The notes beneath the pieces are model-generated. The model saw nothing but the letters and a program-made list of their open reading frames with translations, was not told where the DNA came from and did no database searches. Position numbers and translations under genes: made by a program. Below are positions 27,202 to 48,028 of a DNA stretch of 64,000 nt, piece by piece. Origin of the DNA: Peptococcaceae bacterium (GTDB lineage Bacteria > Bacillota > Peptococcia > Peptococcales > Peptococcaceae). The stretch lies in NCBI GenBank assembly GCA_017399005.1, contig JAFQEO010000035.1, positions 62,001-126,000 on the forward strand, written 5' to 3'. The first letter of the stretch is position 1; every line of letters starts with the position of its first letter.

Positions 27202-27218
27202 ATATGCATGGAGGTCTT

Positions 27219-30200
27219 ATGGAACTGGATTTCAACAGCTTAATGCAAAAACCGAATAGCGATGTTATTGAATTTCTGGGGAAATCCAGTATACGTAAGA
27301 TCACAATCTCACAGCAAAGCAAGGCCTGTGAGATTTTTCTTGCGTGTCCGGAAATGCCGGAGCCAGCGCTTTATGTGCAGTGTCTGCAGTTCTTTATGCA
27401 AAATATGACACAGGCCAGCGGCGTGCGGCTGGTTCTGCAACCCATAAAAAAAATGGATGCCGATACATTTTTGACCAGCCATTACGAGCTGTTTATCACC
27501 ATGTTGCAGCAGCAGCATCCAACGGTAGCAGGCTGGCTGTTTAACAGCTACTGGAAAATGGATGCCGAGGAACTGGAACTGACCATCTGTATCGGGCAGG
27601 AAATCGGGCTGAAATACTTACATAATTTACAATTTACTCTGCAAGCCAGTGTTTTGCTGGATGAAATGCTGCAGGAGAAACTGATTGTGCGCCTGGAACA
27701 CGACGGCGCCATCAAACCACCGGAAATCAAAAAAGCGCCGCCTCAGGCAGCTTATGTTGCGCCGAATACTTCGGTACCAGCAGCCAAACCGGCGGAAGTA
27801 AAAACGGGCGATGCTCTGGCTGACGAAATTGTGCTGCTTGGCAAGCTGATTAAAGATACACCTCGCGCGATTGATTCCTTTGAGGAAGAGGAGAAATTTG
27901 TGACGGTAGAAGGCCGCATTTTCGGTATGGATGTGCGGGAACTGAAAAACGGCAAGCAGCTCTTAACCTTTAAGATTACGGACGACCGCGATTCCATTCT
28001 GTGCAAGGTTATCAAGGAAGCCGATGAAATCAAGGAATTGAAAGGTAAGCTGAAAAAAGTGAAGGCACTGAAAGTAAAAGGCAGTATCCGGGAAGACAGC
28101 TTTGCCCGTGAACTGACCATGATGGCCTTTGACCTGAACCTGACAAAACTGAAAAAACGAAGTGACCATGCGCCGGACAAACGCATTGAACTGCATCTGC
28201 ATACCAATATGAGTGCCAATGATGCACTAAGCGATGTGGGCACTTTAATCAAACTGGCAGGGGATATGGGCCATGAGGCCATTGCTATTACCGACCATGG
28301 TGTGGTGCAGTCGTTCCCGGAAGCTTATAAGGCGGGACAGGATGCCGGAGTGAAAATTATCTACGGTCTGGAAGGGTATCTCTTTGACGACGACCTGCCG
28401 AAAGAGGAGCAGAAAACCTATCACTGCATCCTGCTGGCAAAAAACCAGGCCGGGCTGAAAGCAATCTATCAGCTGGTAACCGAGTCCAACCTGAATTTCT
28501 TTTATCGCCGCCCTAGAATGCCGAAACGGCTTGTGGAGGCAGTGCGTGAAAATCTGGTAATCGGCAGTGCATGCGAAGCAGGCGAGCTGATTCAGACTTA
28601 TATCAAAACCAATAAAGACCACGATGCGCTGGTGAAAATTGCATCGTTTTACGACTTTTTAGAAGTACAACCCCACCTGAACAACGAATTTATGCTGCGC
28701 AAGGGGATCTTTCAGAGCGAGGATGAACTGAAGCAGATTAATCTGGATATCTATGCGCTGGGCAAAGAACTGGGCAAACCGGTTGTGGCTACCGGTGATG
28801 TCCACTTTGCCAATAAAGACGACAGTATTTACCGGGCAATTCTGATGGCCGGCAAAAAATTTGAGGATGCTGACCAGCAGGCACCGCTGTATTATCGCAA
28901 TACCGAGGAAATGCTGGATGAGTTTGACTATTTCCCGCCGGATATTGCAAAAGAGATTGTTATCACCAATCCAAAAAAAATCATTGCTGATTTCGAGGAC
29001 GTCAAGCCAGTACCAGACGGGCTTCACTCGCCGGAAATCGAGGGAGCGGAGGATGAAATCCGGAACCTGACCTATACAAAGGCGCACGAATTGTACGGCC
29101 CCGAGCTTCCTGAACTGGTACAGGCCCGTATCACCAGAGAGTTGGATTCCATTATCGGCAACGGCTTCTCAGTGCTGTATCTGATTGCGCACAAACTTGT
29201 AAAAAAATCAAATGATGACGGCTATCTGGTAGGCTCCCGCGGCTCGGTAGGGTCATCCTTTGTGGCCAATATGACCGGTATTACCGAGGTTAACTCACTG
29301 CCGCCCCATTACCGCTGCCCGAACTGTTACAATACGATTTTCAAAAATGACGGGCAGTATGGCTGCGGGGCAGATATGCCCGATGCTGTCTGTGAAAAAT
29401 GCGGCACACCGATGATTAAAGACGGACACGATATTTTATTCGAAACCTTTCTGGGCTTCAAAGGCGACAAGGTACCTGATATCGACCTGAACTTCTCCGG
29501 TGTGTATCAGCCGAGGGCGCATGCCTACACCGAGGAACTGTTCGGCAAAGACAATGTGTTCCGTGCCGGGACCTTCCAGACCTTTGCGGAGAAAACCGCA
29601 CAGGGCTATGTGGTAAACTATCTGAACGAACGCAATATGAAACGGCGGCAGGCCGAAATCGAGCGCCTCGCTCTTGGTTTTACCGGTGTGCGCCGCACAA
29701 CCGGTCAGCACCCGGGCGGTCTGATGGTTATTCCAAAAGGCATCGACGTGCACGACTTTACGCCGCTGCAGATTCCGGCCGATGACCCGAACAAAGGCAC
29801 TGTCACCACTCATTTTACCTACGAGCAGATTCATGACCGTCTGGTAAAACTGGATATTCTGGGTCACGATAATCCGACCATCATTCGTATGCTTGAGGAT
29901 TTAACCGGATGCAGCTATCAGGATATCCCGCTGGATGAGCCGAAAACATTATCGCTGTTTTCCAGCACGGAGGCGCTTGGCCTTACACCGGAACAGCTTG
30001 GCTCCGAGGTGGGCACCTACGGTATTCCCGAGTTTGGTACCAAATTCACCCGTCAGATGCTGGTGGATGTACAGCCGAAGAACTTTACCGAGCTGGTACG
30101 TATTTCCGGTTTCTCGCACGGGACGGATGTATGGCTTGGCAATGCACAGGATTTAATTTTAAGCGGCACCGCCACAGCGTCCGAAGTAATCGGTTGTCGT

Positions 30201-30896
30201 GATGATATTATGATTTATCTGATTCATATGGGGCTGGAGCCAATCCGCGCCTTTAAAATCATGGAGGCTGTACGTAAGGGGAAAGGCCTCAAACCTGATG
30301 AAGAGGAATACATGCGGGAGAAACACGTGCCGGAATGGTACATCAAATCCTGCAAGACTGTAAAATATCTGTTCCCGAAAGCCCACGCTGTAGCCTATGT
30401 AATGATGGCTTTCCGTATCGCATGGTTTAAAGTCTATCATCCGCTGGCGTTCTATGCCGCAGCCTTTAGCGTGCGAACCGATGATTTTGATGCCGACATT
30501 ATCTGTAAAGGATTGCCGGAAATCGAGAAGCAGATGAAAAACATCAAAGCGATGGGTAACGAGGCAACCGAGAAAGACAAGAAGTTTCAGATCATTCTGG
30601 AGCTCAGCCTGGAACTGTATCTCCGCGGGTTTAGCTGCGAGCGCGTAAACCTGATGGAATCCGATGCAGAAGTGTTCCGTGTTGTAGACGGCCGCCTTAT
30701 TCCACCGTTCTGCGCTCTGCAGGGGCTGGGTCAGTCTGTAGCCTGCAATATTGTGGAAGCCAGAGAACAGGCACCGTTTACATCTATCGAAGATTTGGCC
30801 AACCGTGCAAAAGTCGGTAAATCGCTTATCGAAACCTTGCAGAACCACGGCGTGTTAAACGACCTGCCCGAATCGGATCAGCTTCAGCTGTTCTAA
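27219..30896 (+). CDS. polC: DNA polymerase III PolC, form lacking the 3'-5' exonuclease domain
   Basis: PolC is the main replicative polymerase of Bacillota. This one has 1225 residues instead of about 1430-1440. Order: N-terminal domain (1-165), OB fold (about 226-305), PHP domain starting at ELHLHTNMS (324-332), zinc ribbon with Cys700/703/725/728, catalytic DIDLNFSG (754-761), fingers/thumb and the C-terminal end. In Bacillus PolC the DEDD exonuclease (FDVETTGL...) is inserted in the PHP domain after the GLEAN segment; here GLEGYLFDDD (384-392) runs directly into KTYHCILLAKN, so the whole insert is missing. ATG 27219 follows GGAGG by 4 bases. Confidence 0.95.
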   Translation: MELDFNSLMQKPNSDVIEFLGKSSIRKITISQQSKACEIFLACPEMPEPALYVQCLQFFMQNMTQASGVRLVLQPIKKMDADTFLTSHYELFITMLQQQHPTVAGWLFNSYWKMDAEELELTICIGQEIGLKYLHNLQFTLQASVLLDEMLQEKLIVRLEHDGAIKPPEIKKAPPQAAYVAPNTSVPAAKPAEVKTGDALADEIVLLGKLIKDTPRAIDSFEEEEKFVTVEGRIFGMDVRELKNGKQLLTFKITDDRDSILCKVIKEADEIKELKGKLKKVKALKVKGSIREDSFARELTMMAFDLNLTKLKKRSDHAPDKRIELHLHTNMSANDALSDVGTLIKLAGDMGHEAIAITDHGVVQSFPEAYKAGQDAGVKIIYGLEGYLFDDDLPKEEQKTYHCILLAKNQAGLKAIYQLVTESNLNFFYRRPRMPKRLVEAVRENLVIGSACEAGELIQTYIKTNKDHDALVKIASFYDFLEVQPHLNNEFMLRKGIFQSEDELKQINLDIYALGKELGKPVVATGDVHFANKDDSIYRAILMAGKKFEDADQQAPLYYRNTEEMLDEFDYFPPDIAKEIVITNPKKIIADFEDVKPVPDGLHSPEIEGAEDEIRNLTYTKAHELYGPELPELVQARITRELDSIIGNGFSVLYLIAHKLVKKSNDDGYLVGSRGSVGSSFVANMTGITEVNSLPPHYRCPNCYNTIFKNDGQYGCGADMPDAVCEKCGTPMIKDGHDILFETFLGFKGDKVPDIDLNFSGVYQPRAHAYTEELFGKDNVFRAGTFQTFAEKTAQGYVVNYLNERNMKRRQAEIERLALGFTGVRRTTGQHPGGLMVIPKGIDVHDFTPLQIPADDPNKGTVTTHFTYEQIHDRLVKLDILGHDNPTIIRMLEDLTGCSYQDIPLDEPKTLSLFSSTEALGLTPEQLGSEVGTYGIPEFGTKFTRQMLVDVQPKNFTELVRISGFSHGTDVWLGNAQDLILSGTATASEVIGCRDDIMIYLIHMGLEPIRAFKIMEAVRKGKGLKPDEEEYMREKHVPEWYIKSCKTVKYLFPKAHAVAYVMMAFRIAWFKVYHPLAFYAAAFSVRTDDFDADIICKGLPEIEKQMKNIKAMGNEATEKDKKFQIILELSLELYLRGFSCERVNLMESDAEVFRVVDGRLIPPFCALQGLGQSVACNIVEAREQAPFTSIEDLANRAKVGKSLIETLQNHGVLNDLPESDQLQLF

Positions 30897-43293: not shown

Positions 43294-45921
43294 ATGCTGG
43301 GGAATACCCCTATGATGAAACAATACGAAGAAATTAAAAAGGATTACCAGGATTGCCTGCTGTTTTATCGTCTGGGTGACTTTTACGAGATGTTCGGCCC
43401 CGATGCAGAGCTGGGCAGCCGTCTGCTGGGCATTACCCTGACCGCCCGGGATGGGGGCATGGGCAAAGTGCCGATGTGCGGCGTACCGTTTCATTCAGCC
43501 GACAACTACATTGCAAGACTGATTGCCCTCGGGCAGAGGGTGGCTATCTGTGAACAGATGGAGGACCCGAAGAGTGTCAAAGGCATTGTAAAACGGGAAG
43601 TAATTCGTGTTATCTCGCCGGGCACCATTCTGGAAGGCAAATTCCTGCAGGAGCGAAACAGCAACTATCTGCTGGCCATTGTACGCGGTGAAACGGGCTA
43701 TGGGCTGGCAGTTGCCGATGCCTCCACCGGTGAATTTATCGCCACTGAAGTACCGGACTGGCACACACTGCACAACGAATTCTGGCGCTTTGACCCGGTA
43801 GAGTGCCTGGTATCGGCGGATGACAGCCAGGTGCTGGAGGATGTTACCCGCATTGCCGGGGAAAACCGGGTAACCATCACCTGCCATCACGCCCATGCCT
43901 TTGGGCAGGCCTATGCAGAACAGAAAGTATTAGACCATTTTCATATCAACTCGCTGACCAGCCTGGGCTGCGATGAAAAGCCGCTGTTAACCATTGCGGC
44001 AGGTGCTATTCTGGATTATCTGAACATTATGCAGAAGAGCCGCCCGGCCAATATTATGAGCCTGAAGGTCTATTCGCTGAAAGAGACTATGGATTTAGAC
44101 TATGCCACACGGCGCAATCTGGAGCTGGTTCGCTCGCTGCACGGCGGAGAGCGCAAAGACTCGGTGCTGGGTATTATTGATTACACCCGCACTGCACTGG
44201 GCGGCCGTCTGCTGAAAAACTGGCTGGAGAAACCGCTGTTAAGCGCAGAGGAAATCCAGCGCCGCCTGGACAGTACCGAAGAACTGGTGAACGATACCAC
44301 CATGCGCCTGTCGCTGAAAGAACATCTGGACCCGGTGTACGATTTAGAACGCATCGTATCCCGTATTGCCTACGGCACCGCCAATGCCAAAGACCTGCTG
44401 GCGCTGAAGAACTCGCTGGCCCATCTGCCTGCTCTGCAGCAAAGCATTGCCTCCAGCCGCACCGGTTATCTGCAGCACTTAAACAGCCGGTTTGACCTGC
44501 TGCAGGATATCTACGAACTGCTGGAGGCAGCGGTACATCCGGAAGCGCCGTTTTCGGTAAGAGAGGGCGGCCTGATAAAAGACGGCTACCATGCCGAAAT
44601 TGATGAGCTGCGGGATGTGCTGGTAAACGGCAAACAGTGGATTGTGGAGCTGGAACTGCGGGAGCGGGAACGCACCGGCATTAAGAATCTGAAAGTCAGC
44701 TATAATAAAGTGTTCGGCTATTTTATCGATATCACACGAAGCAAGAGCGGCGATGTGCCGGAGGAATACGTGCGCAAGCAGACACTGGCCAACAGCGAGC
44801 GCTTTATCACACCGGAGCTGAAAGAGCTTGAAAACCGTGTGCTGGGCGCCGACGAAAAACTGAAAGCGCTGGAATACCAGCTGTTTGTGGAGCTTCGCAA
44901 TCAGGTGGGCGAACAGGTGGCGCGCATTCTGAAAAGCGCTCATATTATCGCTCAGCTGGACTGCCTGTTCTCGTTAAGTCAGGCAGCGGTATATCATAAT
45001 TTCTGCAAGCCGGTGATTTCAGAGGACGGCCAGTATATCTTAAAAGACTGCCGCCATCCGGTGGTGGAGGAAAAACTGAAAGACGGCTGGTTTATTCCAA
45101 ACGACGTACACTTTCATCCGGAGCAGGAACGGTTTTTAATTATCACCGGGCCCAACATGGCAGGGAAGAGCACCTACTGCCGAAGCGTGGCAGTAGCATC
45201 GGTACTGATGCAGATTGGCTCTTTTGTACCGGCACGGGAGGCCGTTATGCCTGTGGTAGACCGGGTATTTGCCCGCATCGGGGCAAGTGATGACCTGAGT
45301 ACCGGGCAGAGCACCTTTATGGTGGAAATGAACGAGGTTGCCAACATTGTAAACAATGCAACGAAGGACAGCCTGATTATTTTAGACGAGGTAGGCCGCG
45401 GCACCAGCACCTATGACGGGCTGGCCATTGCCTGGGCATTAACCGACTATATCAACAATACCGTGAAGGCGAAAACCATGTTCGCCACCCATTATCATGA
45501 ACTGACCGCTCTGGACGAGCAGCCGGGCATCCGCAACTACTCGGTGGCGGTAAAAGAGGACGGGGAGAAAATTACCTTCCTTCGCAAGATTGTGGCAGGC
45601 GGCGCCGACCGCAGCTACGGCATTCATGTGGCAAGCCTTGCCGGTATTCCGGAAACCATTCTGCAGAACGCACGGGATGTGCTGCGCACACTAGAGCTGG
45701 AGAAGGAACAGCACCGGCCAAAAGCCAGCCAGATGGAGCTGTTTGTGGCAGAGCCGGAGCCGGAAAGGAAAACAAACGTGCAGACCATCGTGGAGATTCC
45801 GGAAGTGGTGCAGGAACTGGCAGCGGTTAATGTCAACAATCTGACACCGATGGATGCCATGAATCTGTTATTTACACTGCAGCGAAAAGCACAGGAGGTG
45901 ATACAGCTTGGGACAGATTAG
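43294..45921 (+). CDS. mutS: DNA mismatch repair protein MutS
   Basis: MutS recognises mismatches and starts repair with MutL. The 875-residue length is standard. The mismatch-binding Phe-x-Glu motif is seen in LGDFYEMFGPDA near residue 31. The core, clamp and ATPase domain with Walker A GPNMAGKSTYCRS near residue 623 and LDEVGRGTSTYDG are intact. AGGAGGG lies 6 bases before ATG 43294. Its 3' end overlaps mutL by 14 bases, so both are made in fixed ratio. Confidence 0.97.
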   Translation: MLGNTPMMKQYEEIKKDYQDCLLFYRLGDFYEMFGPDAELGSRLLGITLTARDGGMGKVPMCGVPFHSADNYIARLIALGQRVAICEQMEDPKSVKGIVKREVIRVISPGTILEGKFLQERNSNYLLAIVRGETGYGLAVADASTGEFIATEVPDWHTLHNEFWRFDPVECLVSADDSQVLEDVTRIAGENRVTITCHHAHAFGQAYAEQKVLDHFHINSLTSLGCDEKPLLTIAAGAILDYLNIMQKSRPANIMSLKVYSLKETMDLDYATRRNLELVRSLHGGERKDSVLGIIDYTRTALGGRLLKNWLEKPLLSAEEIQRRLDSTEELVNDTTMRLSLKEHLDPVYDLERIVSRIAYGTANAKDLLALKNSLAHLPALQQSIASSRTGYLQHLNSRFDLLQDIYELLEAAVHPEAPFSVREGGLIKDGYHAEIDELRDVLVNGKQWIVELELRERERTGIKNLKVSYNKVFGYFIDITRSKSGDVPEEYVRKQTLANSERFITPELKELENRVLGADEKLKALEYQLFVELRNQVGEQVARILKSAHIIAQLDCLFSLSQAAVYHNFCKPVISEDGQYILKDCRHPVVEEKLKDGWFIPNDVHFHPEQERFLIITGPNMAGKSTYCRSVAVASVLMQIGSFVPAREAVMPVVDRVFARIGASDDLSTGQSTFMVEMNEVANIVNNATKDSLIILDEVGRGTSTYDGLAIAWALTDYINNTVKAKTMFATHYHELTALDEQPGIRNYSVAVKEDGEKITFLRKIVAGGADRSYGIHVASLAGIPETILQNARDVLRTLELEKEQHRPKASQMELFVAEPEPERKTNVQTIVEIPEVVQELAAVNVNNLTPMDAMNLLFTLQRKAQEVIQLGTD

Positions 45922-48028
45922 ACTGCTGGAGGAACACATTGCTGATAAAATTGCAGCCGGCGAGGTTGTGGAGCGTCCGTTATCGGTTGTGAAGGAACTT
46001 TTAGAAAACAGCCTGGATGCCGGTGCCGATTTTGTGGAAATTGAAATCCGTGAAGGCGGCACAGGGCTCATTCGTGTAAAAGATAACGGCAGAGGCATGG
46101 ACGGCGACGATTTAAAGCTGGCCTTTCAGCGCCATGCCACCAGTAAAATCCGCCAGTTTCAGGATTTGTATCAGTTGAACACCTTCGGGTTCCGCGGAGA
46201 AGCGCTGCCAAGTATCGCAGCCGTTGCCCAGGTGGAAATGACAAGCTGCACAGCGGAAGAGCCCATCGGGCATAAAATCCGCATCGACGGCGGCATGGTG
46301 CAGGAATTTAGTGAAACGGCCAGTGCACCGGGCACGGTGATGGAAGTAAAGAACCTGTTTTACAATATTCCGGCGCGACGCAAATTTCTGAAAAGCAACA
46401 GTTATGAAGCCGGGTTAATCGGTGATTTAATCAGCAAGTACGCCATGGGGCAACCGAATGTGCGCTTTCGCTATGTATCGGGCGGCCAGATGCAGCTGGA
46501 TACCGCAGGGCTGCACACAGCCGAACAGCGCATTGCCTATGTATACGGCAGCAATCTGGAGTCGCTGATTGTGCCGGTGGCGCAGACCGAACTTGGCCCG
46601 GGCCGTTATTTAAAAGCATGGCTGGTTCGGGAAGAGGTTACCCGCAACAACCGTGGACAGGAAGTGTTCTTTGTAAACGGGCGGCTGGTAAAGAGTGCAG
46701 AACTGAGCCAGACGTTAGAGGAAAGCTATTATACCTTAATTGCCAAAGGCCGGTTTCCGGTGGCAGTTATGCATCTTACACTGCCTGGCAGTGAACTGGA
46801 TGTGAATATCCATCCTGCCAAAACCGAGATTAAAATCAACGGGTACGAACAGCTGAAACCGAAAATTGTGGAAGTGCTGAAAGATGCTCTGTGGGAAGCC
46901 AGCATCACCAAAAATGCCTTTCTGCCGGAGAGTGTAGCACCGGCTGCCCACCAGCCGAAACAGCAGAACCCATCACAGACTGTATCTCCGATTGCGATGC
47001 AGCCGAAACAGGAGCAGCATTCTGCCAAAGCGGCGGTATCTTACAACAGCCGAACAGAAAGCAAAACCGACAGCACACCGGCTGGTAAACCAGCTGCAGC
47101 ACAAAATAAGGCAGTAAAACCGACTGCAACTCTCCATCCGAGAGAGGAGGAGGGGTCTTCCGGCAAACATCTGGATGGCAGACTGAGTTCCGCCAGTGTA
47201 GTTGCCGAACCGGAAAAACTGTATCAGTTTAAAACGACGGATACCGCAGAAAAATCGGCAGAAACAAAGCCATCTGTAACACAGGATGTACTCTTTGATG
47301 CTGCTGTCTTGAAATCACAAAAACCGGATAGCAAACAGCAAAATGCTGTTTTTTATAACGATGTTAAAAAACAGATACAGAACACAAAATCTGATTCTGT
47401 TGCATCACAGAAATCGGAAGCTGTGCAGGTGAAAGGGATTGCAAATTTATCTGTTATAGGTCAGCTGAATAACGCCTTTATCCTGGCGCAAAACGAGGAA
47501 GGCCTCTATATTATCGACCAGCACACCTGTCACGAACGGATTCTATACGAGAAGTTCATGAAGGCTGAAGCACAAAAGGAGCTTATCTCCCAGCCGCTGC
47601 TGATTCCGGTGACGGTAAACCTTTCGGCACAGCAGGACAGCATTCTGATTCAGCATATTTTCACATTGCGGGAGCTGGGCTTCGTGCTGGAGAACTTCGG
47701 CGAGCGCTGCTATCTGATTCGCAGCCTGCCGCTGGGTCTGCATGAGCTGACCAATGTAGAGGAGTTCTTTATCGACCTGCTGCACGATTTAGAAGAACAG
47801 AAAGAAGTGACAGCCGCCGCCATCAAAGAAAAGCTGCTGATTACCGCATCCTGCAAAGGCGCTGTGAAAGCAAACTGGCCGCTGACTGAAATTGAAATGC
47901 GCACCCTTCTGCATGATCTGTCGCAGGTGGATAACGCCCATACCTGCCCGCACGGCAGACCGATTATCTATAAAATCACCATGCAGGAGCTTTATAAAAT
48001 CTTTAAGCGGGGAACCTGGCATGGATAA
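45908..48028 (+). CDS. mutL: DNA mismatch repair protein MutL
   Basis: MutL links mismatch recognition by MutS to strand incision. The 706 residues comprise an N-terminal GHKL ATPase (ELLENSLDAGAD, DNGRGMDGDD, GFRGEALPSI), a long Gln/Lys/Ser/Thr-rich linker (about 335-505) and the C-terminal dimerisation domain. The latter has the endonuclease motif as DQHTCHERILYEK (Ala of the usual DQHA changed to Thr), plus SCKGAVK and CPHGRPI, so nicking activity is likely, as expected in bacteria without MutH. The start is TTG 45908 behind a perfect GGAGGTGA (45894-45901). Confidence 0.95.
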   Translation: MGQIRLLEEHIADKIAAGEVVERPLSVVKELLENSLDAGADFVEIEIREGGTGLIRVKDNGRGMDGDDLKLAFQRHATSKIRQFQDLYQLNTFGFRGEALPSIAAVAQVEMTSCTAEEPIGHKIRIDGGMVQEFSETASAPGTVMEVKNLFYNIPARRKFLKSNSYEAGLIGDLISKYAMGQPNVRFRYVSGGQMQLDTAGLHTAEQRIAYVYGSNLESLIVPVAQTELGPGRYLKAWLVREEVTRNNRGQEVFFVNGRLVKSAELSQTLEESYYTLIAKGRFPVAVMHLTLPGSELDVNIHPAKTEIKINGYEQLKPKIVEVLKDALWEASITKNAFLPESVAPAAHQPKQQNPSQTVSPIAMQPKQEQHSAKAAVSYNSRTESKTDSTPAGKPAAAQNKAVKPTATLHPREEEGSSGKHLDGRLSSASVVAEPEKLYQFKTTDTAEKSAETKPSVTQDVLFDAAVLKSQKPDSKQQNAVFYNDVKKQIQNTKSDSVASQKSEAVQVKGIANLSVIGQLNNAFILAQNEEGLYIIDQHTCHERILYEKFMKAEAQKELISQPLLIPVTVNLSAQQDSILIQHIFTLRELGFVLENFGERCYLIRSLPLGLHELTNVEEFFIDLLHDLEEQKEVTAAAIKEKLLITASCKGAVKANWPLTEIEMRTLLHDLSQVDNAHTCPHGRPIIYKITMQELYKIFKRGTWHG

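Follow-up and report, generated by a model that had tools for sequence, protein, structure and literature searches.

The polC gene described here raises the question of how a replicase proofreads when its own proofreading domain is missing. PolC, as the textbooks have it, proofreads by a built-in DEDD exonuclease. The window, a stretch of 64,000 nucleotides from a gut bacterium of the Peptococcaceae, encodes a PolC of 1230 amino acids in which this insert is absent, and the original prediction left three options open for it: a separate exonuclease, the PHP domain, or no proofreading at all.

The window PolC lacks the built-in exonuclease

The open reading frame at 27204..30896 (+ strand) was identified as PolC by two NCBIfam profiles, NF001688 (1509 bits) and TIGR01405 (1370 bits), both scoring above their cut-offs. 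Pfam matched the PHP domain (residues 329-483 for the Pfam part; 28188..28652, +), DNA_pol3_alpha (residues 618-887), the finger domain and HHH_6; the polymerase motifs are kept, as had been claimed. The polymerase core and finger domain together span residues 618-1034 (29055..30305, +) and contain the PDIDLNFSG motif, and the protein ends, by translation and alignment, in the clamp-binding motif QLQLF (residues 1226-1230; 30879..30893, +). N-terminal of PHP, placed as in PolC, lies an OB-fold domain (residues 233-312; 27900..28139, +), whose PF01336 score of 25.9 bits is 1.1 below the 27-bit Pfam cut-off. Residues 1-230, the site of the N-terminal NI/NII domains, gave no Pfam match, and conservation of these domains is poor (PMC3919608). 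Modelled with AlphaFold (pLDDT 86), residues 318-620 had Geobacillus kaustophilus PolC (3f2b) as their best PDB match, followed by PolC entries of the 9QPC group and DnaE structures. The model supports a complete PHP fold, continuous in sequence, and says nothing on activity.

In place of the DEDD exonuclease of other PolCs, the alignment shows an 11-residue linker, FDDDLPKEEQK (28383..28415, +), which connects GLEGYL to TYHCILL, while exonuclease-bearing PolCs have about 200 residues there. Counted between the same anchors, anchor residues included, the distance is 202-215 residues in 84 exonuclease-bearing PolCs versus 14 in the window PolC; among 87 exonuclease-less PolCs it is 10-20 residues in 81 and 42-82 in the other six. 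The segment is absent where the original prediction had it absent, and the missing piece amounts to about 195 residues, slightly above the 165-190 residues claimed. A Pfam search of the window PolC at E<=10 returned no RNase_T match, and no DEDD domain was found elsewhere in the protein; the DEDDh pattern was matched by 84/84 exonuclease-bearing PolCs. Because the same junction is common to six congeneric genomes and to other genera and families (linkers of 13-17 amino acids), an assembly deletion at 28380-28420 is ruled out; the loci L006-L009, labelled Peptococcaceae or Clostridia, apparently overlap with the MAGs of the congeners and were not counted as independent. Relocation of the exonuclease within the protein or the genome was rejected at Pfam sensitivity. 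These data confirm that the window PolC has no built-in DEDD exonuclease and that the flanking segments are joined directly.

The six exonuclease-less PolCs with linkers of 42-82 residues (L200, L256-L259 and L027) have charged or low-complexity sequence at the junction. None of the longer linkers inspected contained DEDD motifs, and they may be scars of separate losses.

The PHP zinc site in PolCs with and without the exonuclease

Using a published definition of the PHP motif (PMC12926913), we aligned nine zinc-ligand codons in the window PolC (28194..28805, +). The ligands H331, H333, D340, H365, E390, H407, C457, D532 and H534, of which the last two form the DxH pair (28797-28805, +), give the motif HHDHEHCDH, and the earlier impression that the metal-binding motifs are intact is thereby borne out. 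All nine ligands were intact in 87/87 exonuclease-less versus 73/84 exonuclease-bearing PolCs; 10 of the 11 altered proteins carry a D to N change. Since most exonuclease-bearing PolCs are intact as well, conservation of the ligands is, on these alignments, not specific to exonuclease loss. On the tree, the ligand-loss events (4/4) fall on exonuclease-bearing lineages. Exonuclease-less branches make up 23.9 of the 43.0 units of assignable branch length, and random placement would put all four losses on exonuclease-bearing branches with a chance of about 0.04, a weak signal. Nor did loss of the exonuclease go with a tighter constraint on PHP: the ratio of PHP to polymerase rates was equal in the two groups (1.60 versus 1.58).

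The eleventh altered protein, a Lachnospiraceae PolC (L073; CACYCJ010000310.1), presents the reverse of an exonuclease-less PolC with intact PHP: its DEDD exonuclease is present, and its PHP motif is wrecked, reading SNDNKESNH instead of HHDHEHCDH.

Other exonucleases, DnaE1 and mismatch repair

The genome to which the window belongs (2.41 Mb, 99.8% complete) has a sole RNase_T match, which falls on the N-terminal domain of a 927-amino-acid DinG-type helicase; the DEDDh domain of this protein looks intact. A free DnaQ was not detected with Pfam RNase_T, a Pol I-type exonuclease (PF01612) gave no match, and the YprB-type family (PF13482) gave only a weak match to the same DinG-type protein. At the sensitivity of Pfam, a separate dedicated DnaQ is therefore excluded here, and such a protein does not provide a general answer either. 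When free and DinG-type RNase_T proteins were told apart by ORF length, free ones were found in 28/61 exonuclease-less versus 12/25 exonuclease-bearing genomes on the tree (Fisher p=1). Compensation by a free DnaQ was rejected on this lack of association; a tree-based paired test had too few informative pairs to speak for or against it. Fourteen exonuclease-less genomes had no RNase_T match above cut-off, neither DinG-type nor free; four of these are single-contig (G059, G063, G138 and G166), and in G100 and G166 no PF01612 or PF13482 match was detected either.

Four genus-mates (G001, G003, G005 and G006) encode a DnaQ-like exonuclease as a free protein of about 226 amino acids, which was not detected in the window genome. 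At two loci (L264 and L265), free exonuclease ORFs of 226 and 227 amino acids lie on the minus strand beside a conserved ORF of no assigned function.

A single DnaE is encoded in the window genome (G000:C35:199594). Its intact PHP and its clamp motif, QISLF, mark it as a probable DnaE1, unlike DnaE3. The PHP of the main DnaE1 was intact in 18/18 fully covered cases, a count which leaves out the incomplete proteins of G013 and G150 and includes the window genome; the 17 others come from exonuclease-less genomes, 12 of them without any RNase_T protein. Second DnaE copies in several exonuclease-less genomes (L304, L305, L308 and L309) carry a D to N change in PHP, and the main DnaE1 there is intact. 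The mismatch repair genes near polC had been described as complete, and indeed mutS (43294..45921, +), mutL (45908..48028, +) and also MutS2 are.

The exonuclease-less state is widespread and has changed repeatedly

In an even sample of the phylum, 112/149 genomes had a PolC match and 37/149 had none at a strict cut-off. By ORF length, with more than half of the lengths checked against measured linkers, the 112 comprise 61 exonuclease-less, 41 exonuclease-bearing and 10 not assignable genomes, that is, an exonuclease-less share of about 60% (61/102). Nearly all PolCs of the window's class are exonuclease-less, which together with the shared junction agrees with the guess that the trait belongs to a lineage. 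Pectinatus, which can be cultured and is harmless, is exonuclease-less too. On our main tree of 146 PolCs, built with the insert columns left out, at least 10 changes of state are needed, and well-supported branches force 8 of them; a smaller maximum-likelihood tree, in which deep branches are poorly resolved and the window's class is scattered, gave 9 changes, at least 5 on supported branches. Thus, the exonuclease-less state has changed at least 8-10 times on the PolC tree. The exonuclease insert always sits at the same position, which points to one gain, and the main tree implies 14 losses if the insert was ancestral and never regained. We speak of loss as opposed to primitive absence by inference, because the root of the tree was not inferred.

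Two members of the window's own family, G009 (C31; L281:4163-8548) and G012 (C6; L280), carry an exonuclease-bearing PolC that falls within Lachnospiraceae on both trees, and no native PolC was found in either genome. Most simply, these are probable horizontal replacements of the replicase.

Candidate routes of proofreading

We favour the reading in which this lineage lost the PolC exonuclease and proofreading probably now falls to the zinc PHP domains of PolC and DnaE1; among the three options originally left open, PHP is the best remaining. An ancestral PolC would have carried the DEDD exonuclease in its PHP loop; after its loss, the protein would have stayed a full replicase in the usual pair of PolC and DnaE1, the trinuclear zinc PHP site of one or both polymerases would excise mismatched 3' ends in the manner of mycobacterial DnaE1, and MutS/MutL would act behind this step. 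While the architecture itself is observed, PHP proofreading in PolC is a reasonably probable reading, reached by elimination and by analogy with Mycobacterium tuberculosis DnaE1, the precedent for a zinc PHP exonuclease (PMC5636811). G. kaustophilus PolC, with a D to N change in PHP, shows no exonuclease activity (PMC5636811), and we found no published report of exonuclease activity for any PolC PHP. The intact ligands of most exonuclease-bearing PolCs, the equal rate ratios and the short loop by the active site (about 12 residues in the window PolC versus 29 in M. tuberculosis DnaE1) also count against this reading. The broader proposition, that a replisome of PolC and DnaE1 which lacks any dedicated proofreader of the DEDD family relies on zinc PHP sites alone for proofreading, and arose repeatedly through loss of the PolC exonuclease, we regard as evenly balanced.

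That polymerase selectivity and MutS/MutL carry fidelity with proofreading absent or nearly so is rather improbable, although intact MutS, MutL and MutS2 would fit it, PHP evolves without extra constraint, and the bound metal could have a role in folding alone. Against it, the exonuclease-less state is of long standing and occurs across many families, and the ligands show no decay in 87 exonuclease-less PolCs even though they can go from working enzymes, as in E. coli DnaE and G. kaustophilus PolC (PMC5636811). Slightly less probable still is that the main replicase is DnaE1, with proofreading by its own PHP, and that PolC is a minor enzyme whose exonuclease was dispensable. This idea was raised in 2014 for bacteria with PolC and DnaE1, related bacteria having DnaE1 alone (PMC3919608), and it would suit both the intact PHP and QISLF motif of the window DnaE1 and the genomes of the phylum sample without a PolC match; however, the window PolC has retained both catalytic core and clamp motif, and the replacement of native PolC by a Lachnospiraceae-type enzyme in G009 and G012 suggests that PolC matters. 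We consider least probable, and quite unlikely, a separate exonuclease that proofreads in trans, whether a free protein of DnaQ type or DinG through its DEDDh domain. The intact-looking DinG domain and the free exonuclease of some congeners speak for it, but the free protein was not detected in the window genome, its presence does not track PolC exonuclease loss, and fourteen exonuclease-less genomes have neither type. Moreover, dinG deletion in Bacillus subtilis lowers mutation 2-3 fold, so that DinG is no back-up proofreader there (PMC12525004).

A large share of PolC-bearing lineages thus has no PolC exonuclease, and in some of them RNase_T exonucleases are missing altogether. This absence would leave PHP as the likely source of proofreading in PolC, and makes these bacteria, some with single-contig genomes, natural test organisms for PHP proofreading outside DnaE1.

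Comparison with known systems

Exonuclease-less PolC is not new. It was described in 2014 by Timinskas et al. (PMC3919608), who reported PolCs without the Exo insertion in Clostridia and Negativicutes, which pair them with DnaE1, plus one extra copy in Thermotogae. The window PolC differs from theirs in nothing essential: PHP, Pol3, (HhH)2 and OB, no Exo insertion, and a DnaE1 partner. In their survey this form made up 6% of PolCs and 16% of PolC + DnaE1 systems, versus about 60% by ORF length in our even phylum sample; that share, the repeated change of state, the DinG-type helicase as sole RNase_T protein of the window genome, the lack of compensation by free exonucleases and the PHP ligand counts are our additions. 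Excerpts of a 2026 survey by the same group, which maps proofreaders, credit most Clostridia with three active ones and do not discuss exonuclease-less PolC (PMC12926913). Compared with canonical PolC (G. kaustophilus 3F2B; 9QPC/9QRL/9QRN), the fold, core and clamp motif are alike, and the modelled PHP region is 44% identical to 3F2B. In the 3F2B crystal sequence, too, no more than a short linker stands in for the exonuclease, but the natural canonical enzymes carry the DEDD exonuclease, unlike the window PolC, and both solved sequences have N where it has the PHP ligand D532. M. tuberculosis DnaE1 (5LEW, 7PU7) differs in being DnaE-type, in its proven exonuclease activity and in a loop of 29 residues bordering the groove at the active site (18 in Taq; about 12 here by the E390-H407 spacing), yet it has the same nine-ligand PHP site as the window PolC.
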